From the NCBI GenBank assembly GCA_026129915.1, contig JAHCHD010000027.1:1-42290 (forward strand): DNA of 42,290 nt. Reading direction: 5' to 3'. The notes below the pieces were generated by a model, which was given only the letters and a program-made list of their open reading frames with translations, had not been told where the DNA came from and made no database searches. The stretch is from Bryobacterales bacterium (GTDB lineage Bacteria > Acidobacteriota > Terriglobia > Bryobacterales > Bryobacteraceae). Both the position numbers and the translations under genes were made by a program. Shown in pieces: positions 15,983 to 30,224 of the stretch (the stretch's first letter is position 1; every line of letters starts with the position of its first letter).

Positions 15983-16071
15983 CCTTCATGACTGGTTCGA
16001 CTATAGCTTGGATTTGGCCAACGCGGACTACGCTATCCGATTGGAACCAGCCGTCTCATCCCATCTGTCAC
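15983..16071 (-). repeat. Solo left end of a related IS110/IS1111-type element (inverted)
   Basis: Read on the minus strand, this stretch matches the left ends of the two complete IS copies: gacag-atgggatgaga at its start, GGCTGGTTCC, gatagcgta, GGCCAA, CCAAGCT and finally gaaccagtcatgaag, where the transposase start codon lies in the full copies. The reading after the ATG (MKDVSCSPQNRSGEGG) is not transposase, so only the end remains. Its outside flank (aacaaccgtgacag) also resembles the left flank of IS copy 1 (aaccaaccgggacag). Confidence 0.6.
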
Positions 16072-16999: not shown

Positions 17000-17121
17000 C
17001 GCATCTCCGAGTCCCGGCATCGGAACCAACCGGGACAGATGGGATGAGATTGACTGATTCTCCTGCGATAGCGTAGAGAGCGGCCAAGCAGAGCCAATCA
17101 ACCTGAAGAGGAGAACCAGTC

Positions 17122-18188
17122 ATGAAGAAAAGCATCACATCAGGCCGGAAGGAAGGCAAGGAAACTGTGGCCGCCATGGATACCATTGGCATCGACATCG
17201 GCGATAAGGTGAGCCAGTTCTGCCGGCTCGATGTGGATGGCGAGGTTGCCGACCAGCAGCGCTTCACATCAACACCGAGGAGCCTGAAGAGGCACTTGCC
17301 AAGCTCCCGAAGGCACGCATTGCCTTGAAGCCAGCACGCATTCCGGCTGGATGGCGCGTCAGCTCAAGCAGTGCTGGCATGAGGTGCATGTAGCCAATCC
17401 GCGGGATCTGGCGGCGGTCACCTCCAGCAAGAAAAAGAGCGACCGCAACGATGCCGAGAAGCTGGCACGCCTGGCCCGCGCCGATGTCAGGCTGCTCAAC
17501 GCGGTGTACGTGCGCAGCCTGGAATGCCAGCTGGATTTCACATCCTCTTGCAGGCCCGCGACGGGATGGTGCGGCACGGACCATGCTGGTGAATCAGGCG
17601 CGCAGTCTGGCCAAGATTGAAGCGGTAAGCGCTTGCCAACGACGATCACCCTGACCTTGGCAAGCGTTCCATGGCCCGGCTGCAAGGACACTGCGGACGC
17701 TGCTGGAGCTGCTGCTCGAACAGATTGACACACTGAGCGCGGCCATCAAGGAAGTCACCAAGCAAATAGAGCAACTGCCCGGAACCAAGTATCCGAGGCC
17801 AGCAACTGCGCAAGACACCGGGGTGGGGGCGATCACAGCGTTGCAATTTGTGCTGACCATAGGCAGCAATGAACGCTATGAACAGCCGGGATGTGGAGCT
17901 TTCCTGGGCATGACGCCGAAGCGCAGCCAATCGGGGAACACGACCCAAAGCTGGGCATCAGTAAGGCGGGTAACGGAGCACTGCGGCGCTTGCTGGTGCA
18001 ATGTGCGCACCACATTCTGGGACGTCGCGGACAGGAATCGGCATTGCGTCAATGGGGCCGGAAGCTGGCCGAGCGGGGCGGGGCGAATGCAAACAAGCGG
18101 GCGGTGGTGGCCGTGGCGCAAGCTGAGCGTGATCCTGCACCGGCTCTGGCGTACGGGCGAGCAATGGAAGCCATTTCCCGCCCAATAA
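17122..18188 (+). pseudogene. IS110-family transposase, frameshifted (copy 1)
   Basis: This was a DEDD-type transposase. The N-terminus MKKSITSGRKEGKETVAAMD is followed by IGIDIGDKVSQF with the first catalytic Asp. After frame changes come MARQLKQCWHEVHVANPRDL, then KKKSDRNDAEKLARLARAD, and in another frame the Transposase_20 part GMTPKRSQSG, GISKAGNGALRRLLVQCAHH. At least four single-base insertions or deletions break the frame, mostly in short runs of G or A. The stop of the last piece is TAA at 18186-18188. Not functional as read. Confidence 0.85.
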
Positions 18189-18498
18189 GCCCAATCGGCA
18201 AGGCAGCAAGAGGACAGGACCGAACAAGACCAAGCTCTTGAAGGGAAGAACAATCACGAGATTCTGTGGAAATTCGAGTTCGTGACGTGACTGCGACGGA
18301 GGCTGTAAGGCAAAGCCCGTAAGGGCGGAGACCTCGAGGGACAGTAGGCAGCACGTCCTCTAGCAAACGGACCTCAGCATGCATCCGGCCAACCTGAAGC
18401 GGCCACCAGGAATGCGAATGGAAGCCAGGTTCCCAGAGCGAAAGAAAACGAACCCGGAAACGCCCTTTACGGTTGACACGGGAGCGTCGTCTCATGGA
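18189..18498 (+). ncRNA. Candidate seekRNA/bridge RNA region of IS copy 1
   Basis: The 310-nt non-coding tail is almost identical to that of copy 2 although the coding part is broken. It includes the self-complementary stretch gcaaagcccgtaagggc and, at 18338-18352, gggacag-ta-ggcagc. These are the left target half followed by the reverse complement of the right target half of copy 2 (see findings). In IS1111-type elements the guide RNA is encoded downstream of the transposase. Presence of an RNA is inference. Confidence 0.4.
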
Positions 18499-18500
18499 AG

Positions 18501-19438
18501 CCTCCGTGTTTCTGGGTTTCCCAGTGGGCGGCGTAGCTTCAGATTCCGCAGCCCGCAGGGGGCGTCTGGGAGCGAGGGGGGCGCACCTGTGGCTCTGCGA
18601 TGCCTCGTTCCTTTGCCCTTCCGCCGGTTTGCACCGACCGTTCCTGCTTGGGTAGCGCCTGTGACGCTGGCCGTTGGACCGCTGACGCGGTCCGAAGGGG
18701 GGTGGGGGAACGGGTCCAGGCGTATGAAACACCTGGCTATTCACTTTCGGTCGCTGACGCGACGTTCGGATGCGCTAGGGATGAGGCAGGCTGGGCGATT
18801 GCTTCGGCGGGGTCCGCGATTGGCCAGGAGGTGTAGGCGAATGGATTGGTGCGCTGGTGGGAAATGCCGCGTTGGCATTCCAACAGGAGTTGGCCCCCTC
18901 GAAGGTGCGTTTCGAGGTTGAGGCGTCTGTCCCTGCGGCTAGAAGGTGCGTTTCGAGGTTGAGGCGTCTGTCCCTGCGGCTAGGTTGAGGCGTTTGTCCC
19001 TGCGGCTTAGCCGATTTTGGGCTTCGCGGCAAGGATTTGCGGTGCGGATGGTCTGGATTCGGGAAACGTTCGGGCGGAGAGGGGACAGTCTGGCGCCTGG
19101 ATGGCTGGGCGCTGCGCGAGTAGAGGCTTGGGCGCGCACGACAGTCCACCGTCCGGGGAAGGGGCGTGCTGTGTTTAGATCCGTTCAAGGCGCAGATCGG
19201 GGCGGAGAGGGGAAGGCGTCTCCGGGTGAAGCGGTGCCGATTCCGCACAGCGTGGTGCTGAGTGAGCCGCCCTCGCTCTGCTTCGGGCTCTGGGATGGGG
19301 ATGAACCCCGGGCTTACGCCGCGGGGCTGTCCTCTGTGACGCGCCCTCGCTCTGCTTCGGGCTCTGGCGGCGGGGCTGACGCATCACATTGGCGATGAGA
19401 AGCACCGGTCGCGATGCAGCAAAGGGTTTCGGGGACAT
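18501..19438. other. Non-coding repeat-rich stretch
   Basis: No convincing gene is seen on either strand; the open frames are artefacts of high GC content. It contains a 41-bp tandem repeat at 18901-19009 and a 26-bp direct repeat (cgccctcgctctgcttcggg...) at 19268-19293 and 19342-19367. The whole stretch resembles decayed mobile or intergenic repeat material. Confidence 0.55.
18901..19009. repeat. 41-bp tandem repeat, about 2.7 copies
   Basis: Two identical 41-bp units (18901-18941 and 18942-18982, starting gaaggtgcgtttcgaggttg) are followed by a partial third unit (18983-19009) with one substitution. In frame the unit encodes an Arg/Val-rich peptide, but no gene encloses it. Confidence 0.85.
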
Positions 19439-19550: not shown

Positions 19551-19673
19551 GAGCCGGAATTGGGAAGCGGACATAAGACGTGCCACCCCACCGGGGTTCC
19601 TCTCTTGCTGCGACGAGACGGGGCGCTGACGCACCCCGCTGGCCTATATCGCCCGGCTAGCCGGGCATCCGCT
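19551..19673. repeat. 123-bp interspersed repeat, copy A
   Basis: This is nearly identical to 21567-21690. It contains the perfect 16-bp palindrome gcccggctagccgggc (19651-19666), a ccccaccgggg hairpin and the run gacgagacggggcgctgacg. It abuts the RAYT N-terminal remnant at 19690-19840. Such palindromic repeats next to a RAYT gene resemble REP/REPIN units. Confidence 0.8.
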
Positions 19674-19689
19674 GTCACCGAAACTCCCA

Positions 19690-21566: not shown

Positions 21567-21690
21567 GAGCCGGCAATGGGAAGAGGACATAAGACGTGCC
21601 ACCCCACTCGGGGTTCCTCTCTAACTGCGACGAGACGGGGCGCTGACGCACCCCGCTGGCCTATATCGCCCGGCTAGCCGGGTATCCGCT
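21567..21690. repeat. 123-bp interspersed repeat, copy B
   Basis: This copy has the same orientation as copy A at 19551-19673, with about eight differences. The palindrome here is gcccggctagccgggt (21669-21684), one base off perfect. It overlaps the 3' end of the truncated regulatory-domain gene, supplying its last codons (ASRAI). Confidence 0.8.
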
Positions 21691-22338
21691 CTCTTGAGAA
21701 TAGCCGTAACCCATGGATTCTAAAAGACGGAATTCGGGATCTGCATCCTTGCCGTCTCGACCCAAGAGCGTCACCACCGTTTCCCCGAACATGGTGACCG
21801 GAAGCGCCTGGCCTTCTTGGAAGTCTTGCGCCCGAATGAAATACGTTCCATCGGTCAGGCCACAGATCCGGAATTGCCTGCCAGCTTCCACAATGTCAAA
21901 CCATGTGAAACTGAAGGAAGACCCTCCTTTCCTCGTCGCGCCGAAGCCGGGATCCGTATGTTCCAGGGTGATCTGCGCCTTCTGCTGCTTTGCAAGCCCG
22001 TTTTCTTTGCCCTCCACGCAAAGTGAGGGGTCGCGCCCCATTTGCAGATTGATCCCCTCCCTCTTTTCCCCGCTTTTCAACAACGTGGCGTGCTTGCGGC
22101 AATCGAAGACAGATTTGGGTAGAAAGTCCGTGCGTATATCTTGCGGCGCCTCTCTGGATTCAGAGGCGCGTTGGCCATGGCCACAGCAGGTAGGTTCCGT
22201 GGCGGCCATGTAGCCATTAGCAGCACCGGGTTCCGCTCCAGGTAATGCCTGCATACGCCGATTGCGAAACTGAATTCTAGCCCCCGCTAAATAGACACTA
22301 ACGTCCGGGATGCCGTCCCCAGTATCCGCATCCACCAC
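21661..22338 (-). pseudogene. Carboxypeptidase-regulatory-like domain protein, truncated
   Basis: The open frame of 225 aa begins without a proper start: just before VVDADTGDGIPDVSVYLAGA the same frame shows SGY and then an in-frame TGA. That opening and the later FTWFDIVEAGRQFRICGLTD, GTYFIRAQDF look like carboxypeptidase regulatory-like (CnaB/transthyretin-type) repeats found in secreted acidobacterial proteins. No signal peptide is present. The 3' end is made from the 123-bp repeat. The gene therefore seems to be cut at both ends. A short functional cytosolic protein starting at the GTG (22338) cannot be excluded. Confidence 0.45.
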
Positions 22339-27528: not shown

Positions 27529-28054
27529 TTGAGCTTGTCCTTCAAGGCTGCATCGAAGCGAAGCTCTCTGGCGGGCCTAGAGCGCCGCTGCATAAGGATA
27601 GACAAGCGGCCCGGATGCCATTTCTGGCGGGAATACGACGGCCTGCCTCGATCCATTCCGAAACTGCTCGACATCGTGGCCATTGATTCCTTGAAACTGC
27701 ACCTGCAGAACCCGTGGCTCCGCCCACTCGCCTTTGGCGCCAAACCGCACGTCTCCCATGACTGTAGGGAAGACTGTGCTCCTCGCGTAGGCTGCAAGCT
27801 TCGCGTCGTCAAACCCGCCGACTGCTTCGACAGCCTGGGCGATCACCTGCATCTGCGCGTATGCGAGAGGCCCCATGTAATGCCCCAGAAGATCGACATT
27901 CGCGGCAGCAGCAAGTTCCTGGTACCTGTTGAGAAATTGCCGGACATCCGAAAACATCATCTTTGGGACAGATGGGAGCGAGACGACTGGTTCTCTGCGA
28001 TAGCGTATAGAGCGGCCAAGCAGAGCCAAACCAAGCTGAAGAGGAGAACCAGTC

Positions 28055-29125
28055 ATGAAGAAGAGTACCAAAGCATCAGGCCGGAAGGAAGGCAAGGAAA
28101 CCGTGGCCGCCATGGATACCATTGGCATCGACATCGGCGATAAGGTGAGCCAGTTCTGGCTTACTGATGTGGATGGCGAGGTTGCCGACCAGCAGCGCTT
28201 CCACACCAACACCGAGAGCCTGAAGAGGCACTTTCGTTGCCTCCCGAAGGCACGCATTGCCTTGGAAGCCAGCACCGCATTCGGCTGGATGGCGCGTCAG
28301 CTCAAGCAGTACGGGCATGAGGTGCATGTAGCCAATCCGCGGATCTGGCGGCGGTCACCTCCAGCAAGAAAAGAGCGACCGCAACGATGCCGAGAGAAGC
28401 TGGCACGCCTGGCCCGCGCCGATGTCAGGTTGCTCAACGCGGTGTACGTGCGCAGCCTGGAATGCCAGCTGGATTTCATTCCTCTTTGCAGGCCCGCGAC
28501 GGATGGTGCGGGCACGGACCATGCTGGTGAATCAGGCGCGCAGCTTAAGATCGAAGGGAAGCGCTTGCCAACGACGATCACCCTGACCTTTGGAAGCGTT
28601 CCATGGCCCGGCTGCAAGGACACCAGGACGCTGCCGGAGCCGCTGCTCGAACAGATTGACACACACTGAGCGCGGCCATCAAGGAAGTCACCAAGCAATA
28701 GAGCAACTGCTCCGGAACCAAGCATCCGGAGGCCAGCAAACTGCGCAAGACACCGGGGGTGGGGGGCGATCACAGCGTTGCAATTTGTGCTGACCATAGG
28801 CAGCAATGAACGCTTTGCGAACAGCCGGGATGTGGAGCTCGGGCATGACGCCGAAGCGCAGCCAATCGGGGAACACGACCCAAAGCTGGGCATCAGTAAG
28901 GCGGGTAACGAGCACTGCGGCGCTTGCTGGTGCAATGTGCGCACCACATTCTGGGACGTCGCGGACAGGAATCGGCATTGCGTCAATGGGGCCGGAAGCT
29001 GGCCGAGCGGGGCGGGGCGAATGCAAACAAGCGGGCGGTGGTGGCCGTGGCGCGCAAGCTGAGCGTGATCCTGCACCGGTTTCTGGCGTACGGGCGAGGA
29101 ATGGAAGCCATTTCCCGCCCAATAA
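28055..29125 (+). pseudogene. IS110-family transposase, frameshifted (copy 2)
   Basis: The first piece is longer than in copy 1: MKKSTKASGRKEGKETVAAM, then IGIDIGDKVSQFWLTDVDGE, then KARIALEASTAFGWMARQLK, giving the first Asp and the Glu of the DEDD set. After frame changes the Transposase_20 region reads GMTPKRSQSG, LGISKAG and RLLVQCAHHILGRRGQESAL. Indels differ in position from those of copy 1 (for instance ggcgatctgg-type runs of G and A), so a composite of the two copies reads as a nearly complete enzyme. As read, this copy is not functional. Confidence 0.85.
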
Positions 29126-29431
29126 GCCCAATCGGCAAGGCAGCAAGAGATAGGACCGAACAAGACCAAGCTCTGAAGGGAAGAACAATCACGAGATTCT
29201 GTGGAAATTCGAGTTCGTGACGTGACTGCGACGCAGGCTGTAAGGCAAAGCCCGTAAGGGCGGAGACCCGAGGGACAGTAGGCAGCACGTCCTCTAGCAA
29301 ACGGACCTCGCATGCATCCGGCCAACCTGAAGCGGCCACCAGGAATGCGAATGGAAGCCAGGTTCCCAGAGCGAAAGAAAACGAACCCGGAAACGCCCTT
29401 TACGGTTGACACGGGAGCGTCGTCTCATGGA
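29126..29431 (+). ncRNA. Candidate seekRNA/bridge RNA region of IS copy 2
   Basis: This non-coding right end contains gggacag-ta-ggcagc at 29272-29286. The reconstructed insertion site of this copy is gggac-AG-gctgcc. The first word equals the top strand of the left half, and the second is the reverse complement of the right half. Guides that pair with opposite strands on each side of a core dinucleotide are what bridge/seekRNAs use. Existence of the RNA is inferred from family knowledge. Confidence 0.45.
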
Positions 29432-30224
29432 AGGCTGCCAGTACTCGTAGTTCATGAACCCGTTCAGCAATGGGCCTAGGGTTGTCTTTACTGCTGTGTT
29501 CTGAGGGCCAATCATGGATGCGCCGACCATCTTCGGGCGAAACGGATGCGCATGGATGGCTCGCACGAGACCGATTGAGTCGTTGAGATAGGAACAGACA
29601 AACAGCAGGTCGCAATTAGTTCTGGCAACCGCATCCATGACGGGCGTGAAGTCTTCGGTGCTCAGCGAATAGGAGGCCCGATGAACCACTTCGAAGCCAT
29701 ACTTCGCCGCATTGGCGATGGCGCCGAGAATGGGGTTGCGCGAGAACTCGGCATCGGCGGATAGCAGGGCTACTGTCTGAGGCCGCGGTGTTTGCTTTGC
29801 AGCAACAGAGAAAAAGCCTTCGGTGAGAGCCGCGTTCGGATCAGGGCCGGTCGGAATCATCGCAAAGTAGTTCGGATAGAGAAGCTCGTTGTTAACACCG
29901 AGCCCCATCAGTCCAACGAAGAAGCGTCGGCGCTCCATGATTAATGGCATTGCAGGCAGGAGAGAGTTGGTGCCATACCCGCCGATCACAAGATCCACTT
30001 TGTCTTCATCCATCAGACGTTTGTAGATTCCTGGCACTAGGGAAGCATCGCTACGGTCGTCGTAACAGATGAGCTCAACGGGGCGGCCCAGCAAACCGCT
30101 TCTGCTGTTGACATCCTCCCGCCAGATTTCGTGAGCAAGCTGTGCTGACCGGCTGTTCTCTGCAACAGGACCGGTCAGCGAAAGGCAATACCCAACTCGG
30201 ATTGACGTTGCCGGGTTGGCCATC

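Follow-up and report, generated by a model that had tools for sequence, protein, structure and literature searches.

The window, by which we mean the whole stretch of 42,290 nucleotides analysed here, contains two forward-strand copies of an insertion sequence (IS) with the traits of the IS1111 group. By the IS1111 convention copy 1 spans positions 17037..18498 (equally 17039-18500) and copy 2 positions 27970..29431, although the AG core leaves the ends of the latter ambiguous by 2 bases, and 27972-29433 is equally valid. The left target half of both copies is GGGACAG, as had been observed in the initial annotation of this DNA (17032..17038 for copy 1; 27965..27971 for copy 2, with the core AG at 27970-27971), while the right target halves, also on the forward strand, are CCTCCGT (18501..18507) and GCTGCCA (29434..29440), respectively.

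Element copies, transposase and host gene

The extensions of copy 2, AGATGGG on the left and GGA on the right, measure 7 and 3 bp with the AG core counted on the left, as is standard for IS1111 elements. Subterminal inverted repeats, expected at 11-13 bp in this group, agree at 11-12 of 12 positions in many relatives; they are worn in the window, where copy 2 keeps 8 bp (GAGACGAC). Both transposases are in pieces, with an N-terminal fragment in copy 2 (28055..28669, forward strand; PF01548, below the cut-off) and a C-terminal fragment in copy 1 (17823..18188, forward strand; PF02371, at the cut-off), and numerous small indels between the two copies disrupt the reading frame. These breaks may represent decay or poor sequence; unless they are sequencing errors, both copies would need outside help to move. 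The DEDD transposase with a Transposase_20 domain expected of the IS1111 group is found in relatives, and in the window copies as fragments only. Indeed, eight transposases of relatives match PF01548 (8/8), PF02371 (7/8) and NF033542, the model of the IS110 family RNA-guided transposase (8/8), and, compared by sequence, the relatives with solved structures are the transposases of IS621 and ISCro4. A long non-coding region 3' of the transposase, a further trait of the group, is also present.

When copy 2 is removed, GGGACAG joins GCTGCC within an uninterrupted 500-codon frame, measured from stop to stop, which bears out the earlier proposal that excision restores the target. The two pieces flanking the copy match the Pfam family Peripla_BP_6 at profile positions 1-245 and 257-326, the second with a score of 26.0, under the curated cut-off of 31.7. 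Judged from these matches, copy 2 sits inside a predicted Peripla_BP_6 gene, and taking it out reopens the frame.

The genome from which the window derives is fragmented (5.28 Mb, 84.9% complete). It contains two full tails, both within the window, and six left ends, five of which are flanked by GGGACAG and one by GTGACAG. A left-end-only remnant of a related element with a GTGACAG flank lies on the reverse strand at 15984..16069; its likeness to the element stops after about 90 bases and is followed by other sequence. A direct repeat of 85 bases, 95% identical, is found at 19592-19676 and 21609-21693, 2,017 bases apart. A search of plasmid and phage collections returned no match.

Target guides in the tail of the element

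The initial annotation had pointed to the string gggacagtaggcagc, which is indeed present in the tails of both copies at 18338-18352 and 29272-29286, and had read it as gggacag, the left guide, followed after two bases by ggcagc, the right guide. To follow these words across relatives, genomes were searched with a covariance model of the surrounding loop. At E 0.01 there were matches in 29 of the order's 257 genomes and in 16 of 396 genomes sampled from the phylum; at E 0.001, a sample of 399 genomes from the class gave 42. A first set comprised 33 right and 20 left guides, all distinct. Its left registers were assigned manually for both window copies and for L040, L158 and L165, the register found for L164 (1/7) was kept, and L130 and L163 had left flanks that were too short. 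A uniform parser applied with no hand fixes returned 125 modules, 109 with a right end and 71 with a called left end. After the false hit L046 had been dropped, 108 elements remained, 101 of them distinct. Left ends were kept only if they started with AT and had TGA after the extension, which retained 49 left ends with 37 distinct left guides; the window copies are outside these 37, their worn left ends having been missed or miscalled by the parser.

The left target guide of copy 2 is the GGGACAG at 29272..29278 (forward strand), that of copy 1 the same word at 18338-18344. In the sister genome G003 the corresponding tail reads CGA-GTATCCG-AT-[G/A]GCAGCACGTCC, where the window has CGA-GGGACAG-TA-GGCAGCACGTCC; the place of the guide is thus taken by GTATCCG, and the left flanks of G003 are GTATCCG in three of four left ends and GTATCAG in the fourth. 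The putative guide word and the left flank are therefore swapped together between the two genomes, so that GGGACAG behaves as a guide. The word GCAG, on the other hand, is unchanged in this swap although the right flanks differ, and ggcagc does not behave as a guide. The same trend holds across elements: in the uniform parse the 37 distinct left guides match their own flank at 5.97 of 7 bases, against 3.27 for mispaired combinations, with none of 20,000 permutations as high, and leaving out the near-constant AG they still match at 4.00 of 5 against 1.35. The 20 distinct left guides of the first set gave 6.15 of 7 against 3.31 (again 0/20,000 permutations as high). This part of the earlier reading, gggacag as the left guide, is upheld.

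The right guide was found elsewhere, in a variable stretch that follows GACTGCG directly and whose reverse complement matches the right flank. The guide of copy 1 is ACGGAGGCTGT (18296..18306, forward strand), which fits the joined site ACAG|CCTCCGT at 11/11 bases and the flank alone at 7/7; in copy 2 it is ACGCAGGCTGT (29231..29241, forward strand), which fits its site at 8/11 bases, including 4/7 right-flank bases. A block of 95 bases differs between the two copies at a single base (18299/29234), which lies inside this guide, and each copy's version fits its own right flank. Copy 1 had been described as having a right flank, cctccg, that fits poorly, which is true against ggcagc (3/6) and is reversed against the relocated guide. 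In the uniform parse 75 distinct right guides match their own flank at 6.24 of 8 bases, against 3.90 when mispaired, and those of the first set at 6.45 against 4.07, in both cases with 0/20,000 permutations as high. Scores of at least 6/8 are reached by 54 of the 75 with their own flank, against 5.8% of mispaired combinations; the other 21 fall below 6/8, and in the three G003 copies the fit is 5/8 each, near the mispaired mean. The contrast persists when the guide is taken at one fixed offset (4.50 against 2.35), and control stretches stay at background, whether taken further out, with 3.72 against 3.67, or from the wrong side, with 3.17 against 3.20. Base by base, the right guide is above background from +1 to +7 and not at +8 (n=76), and the left guide from -3 to -7 and not at -8 (n=35), -1 and -2 being the near-constant AG. 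Both predicted guides thus end sharply at 7 bases on either side, with limits at -7 and +7 around AG.

The two words lie in a loop region reading GTGACTGCG...GCAGC. Covariation places the 5' arm of its closing stem, GACGTGaCTGC, at 29219..29229 (copy 1, 18284-18294) and the 3' arm, GCAGCACGTC, at 29282..29291 (copy 1, 18348-18357), both on the forward strand. Four of the ten pairs are changed on both sides and the covariation score is above all of 500 shuffles; the number of double-change pairs is not above shuffles (72/500 as high). A fold of the tail supported by covariance, as the initial annotation had asked for, is accordingly found for the closing stem and not in the thermodynamic fold of the window RNA, which is no better than that of shuffles (z 0.28). 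A search of 29100-29450 against Rfam gave one match only, below the gathering score and on the opposite strand.

The 3' stem arm overlaps the ggcagc at 29281-29286. In its GCAG, which pairs with CTGC, the inner four pairs of the stem are invariant in 17/17 aligned elements. That gggacag and ggcagc, two bases apart, form the left and right guides is suggested by the 6/6 fit of ggcagc in copy 2; this fit is best seen as chance, since the word belongs to a conserved stem arm and does not follow the right flank. Over the 33 elements with distinct right guides, xGCAGC matches its own right flank at 1.85 of 6 bases against 1.80 mispaired, with 5,495 of 20,000 permutations as good, i.e. at chance level. 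Its order is also wrong for an IS1111 element: gggacag followed by ggcagc is left-then-right, the order of IS110 and IS621, so that the layout does not fit exactly as had been stated. We give this reading almost no credence, and ggcagc was rejected as the right guide. One guide for each target side, as initially proposed, does hold, with the right one moved to 29231-29241 and 18296-18306; likewise, on aligning the flanks of other copies with the tail, the left word follows its flank and ggcagc does not follow the right one.

The preferred arrangement, with the relocated right guide first, can be compared with published ones. According to PMC11187229, as far as its account of these elements goes, IS1111 seekRNAs place the top-strand match 5' of the bottom-strand match and ISEc21, of the IS110 group, has the reverse; in the description of IS621 in PMC11208160 the bottom-strand guide is 5'. 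In the window element the right guide (top-strand-pairing) is 5' and the left guide (bottom-strand-pairing) is 3', which is the IS1111 order. The IS110 group has its RNA upstream of the transposase and the left guide first; here the RNA region is downstream and the order is reversed.

The relatives in G500, a genome of the same class assembled as a single contig, show what such sites look like in quantity. All seven element copies in this genome have the right flank CCGCTGAG, which is the complement of the copies' guide, and the left flank GCTT[C/T]AG. Uninterrupted sites GCGGCTTCAGCCGCTGAG with at most 2 mismatches number 163, against 0 for the reversed control. From their sequence these target sites look like a dispersed, often inverted repeat; on contig C1 (L170-L176, L189-L218) the 163 REP-like sites are found along with the seven element copies. 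They also bear on whether GGGACAG might be part of the IS itself, its presence in both flank and tail then being an internal repeat. Its recurrence beside five of six left ends in the window's genome would agree with such an origin; however, removing the IS with GGGACAG kept leaves the 500-codon open frame, the counterpart bases in G500 belong to the 163 uninterrupted sites, and other lineages have other flanks with matching guides. We regard an internal repeat as very improbable.

Taken as target guides, the two putative words are shown to occupy a loop that a covarying stem closes and to change with the flanks across elements, the right guide first. We therefore have high confidence, on comparative grounds, that the tail holds a predicted IS1111-type guide RNA whose 5' and 3' words correspond to the right and left halves, respectively, of the site where the element itself is inserted, and that this RNA likely steers the recombinase. 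The sites would likely have 14 bases, with 5 to the left of the AG and 7 to its right; the RNA would be made and bound by the transposase, and its guide words would pair with opposite strands of the target. The original assignment to an IS1111-type element with a seekRNA- or bridge-RNA-like region after the transposase and an AG core is thus supported by the sequence as a predicted region.

The second module and the right tip

Downstream of the target loop a second module (29314..29348, forward strand) is formed by the stem GCAT (29314-29317)/ATGC (29345-29348) and its loop. It is followed by ATGGAAG (29351..29357, forward strand; copy 1 at 18418-18424), a candidate left donor guide that equals the right tip of the element including the AG core (29427..29433, forward strand; copy 1 at 18494-18500). 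Across elements the module reads GCA[C/U/G]...[G/A/C]UGC and then AT[G/A]GAAG. Its covariation score is above 500/500 shuffles; only the closing pair varies on both sides, being C-G in 42, U-A in 6 and G-C in 2 of 50 elements. The elements of the uniform set were located through this module, whose presence there is by construction; in a set of 42 elements selected only by their loop and right end, the donor word was found with a strict pattern in 36, and in the other six the word is visible after ATGCG.

The word equals the right tip of the IS in 93 of 101 distinct RNAs. Because the search patterns allowed no more than one substitution among its other bases, weight can be given only to the third base and to departures. 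The third base agrees between word and tip in 100 of 101 (14 A/A, 86 G/G and one C/G), with a Fisher value of 2e-17 that ignores descent. In L185 (G091:C626) word and tip are both ATAGAAA, and the core is AA, not AG, at each of four places: left flank, left target guide, right tip and donor word. L254 likewise carries ATGGCAG as word and as tip. In L346, L347 and L350 of G822 both are ATAGAAG, while nearby transposases in the tree have ATGGAAG in both, and these copies appear by sequence to be a natural double change of donor word and tip. The tree was built from 59 transposases, after six non-homologous frames, two of them with A, had been dropped from 65. On it word and tip change four times, together, with at least three of the changes forced by supported branches; four joint changes are too few for a sign test to reach significance. 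At the level of sequence, the identity of this putative donor word with the right tip in most elements, and their joint change, are shown.

A CCCAACT-like stretch before the second stem was considered as a guide for the left tip, and its pairing was not significant, with 2,129 of 20,000 permutations as good. This is a weak test, since the extractor picked the wrong segment for at least L129 and L131; a left-tip likeness is visible in some elements, e.g. L150 and L164.

Two views of the second module have to be weighed. The RNA could be a seekRNA for the target only, the transposase itself reading the ends and the likeness of AT[G/A]GAAG to the tip being due to history, a processing signal or conversion. 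In the account of PMC11187229 an RNA of 82 nt suffices for ISEc11 and which domain binds the ends is left open, which would be in line with such an RNA, as would the missing support for a left-tip guide and the 8/101 words that differ from their tip. The agreement at the third base, the unusual tips of L185 and L254 copied in the word, the four joint changes on the tree and the position of the word beside a covarying stem argue against it; moreover, Durrant et al. (PMC11208160) predict donor-binding bases in the multi-loops of many IS1111 RNAs, by manual inspection of six elements as described there. We consider a target-only RNA a serious contender that falls somewhat short of even chances. 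We lean, with modest confidence, towards a true bridge RNA that would read both the element's own right end and the target, AT[G/A]GAAG being the donor guide and L185 having changed its core from AG to AA at four places simultaneously. As a guide for the right tip the word is likely but unproven. One RNA would then bridge element and target through its second module. If this is true, IS1111 and IS110 would share one bispecific mechanism with reversed guide order, and a seekRNA for the target only would represent the minimal form of the RNA rather than the complete one.

Relation to known RNA-guided elements

This is a predicted guide region in a new member of an already known RNA-guided family, with the right guide lying away from the place initially assigned to it. 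Our work adds natural evidence for guide order and guide length in this clade, together with a candidate donor word. The natural guide-target pairs give guide lengths from the data themselves, 7 and 7 around AG, and with its 101 distinct RNAs the clade provides roughly a hundred variants from nature in which the target guides, the core and the right-tip word are changed. How IS1111 elements recognise their own ends is left open in PMC11187229 and PMC11208160, as far as their texts on these elements go; with such variants, this recognition becomes testable by single-word swaps.

The nearest known systems are the IS1111 seekRNAs of ISEc11, ISPa11 and ISKpn4. As these are described by Siddiquee et al. 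(2024, PMC11187229), the window element shares with them an RNA region 3' of the transposase, a right guide placed before the left, subterminal inverted repeats, extensions of 7 and 3 bp, and guides that overlap at the insertion point; the G500 relatives also target repeats, as ISPa11 does. It differs from the three in its targets and broken copies, and from the seekRNAs in the form described there by a second module with a candidate donor word.

With the bridge RNA of IS621 and the IS110 group, in the terms used by Durrant et al. (2024, PMC11208160) and Hiraizumi et al. (2024, PMC11208158), it would have in common an internal loop with one guide for each target side, a core dinucleotide in both guides and a second part for the element's own ends. 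In contrast to those elements its RNA lies at the right end and not the left, its guide order is reversed, the core of the clade is AG (AA once) where IS621 has CT, and the donor part is a candidate of which one of two guides is seen. Finally, like the IS1111 bridge RNAs predicted in PMC11208160, the RNA proposed here has a right-end position and candidate donor bases downstream of the target loop, and in place of the six manually inspected elements described there the comparison of word and tip extends over 101 distinct RNAs.
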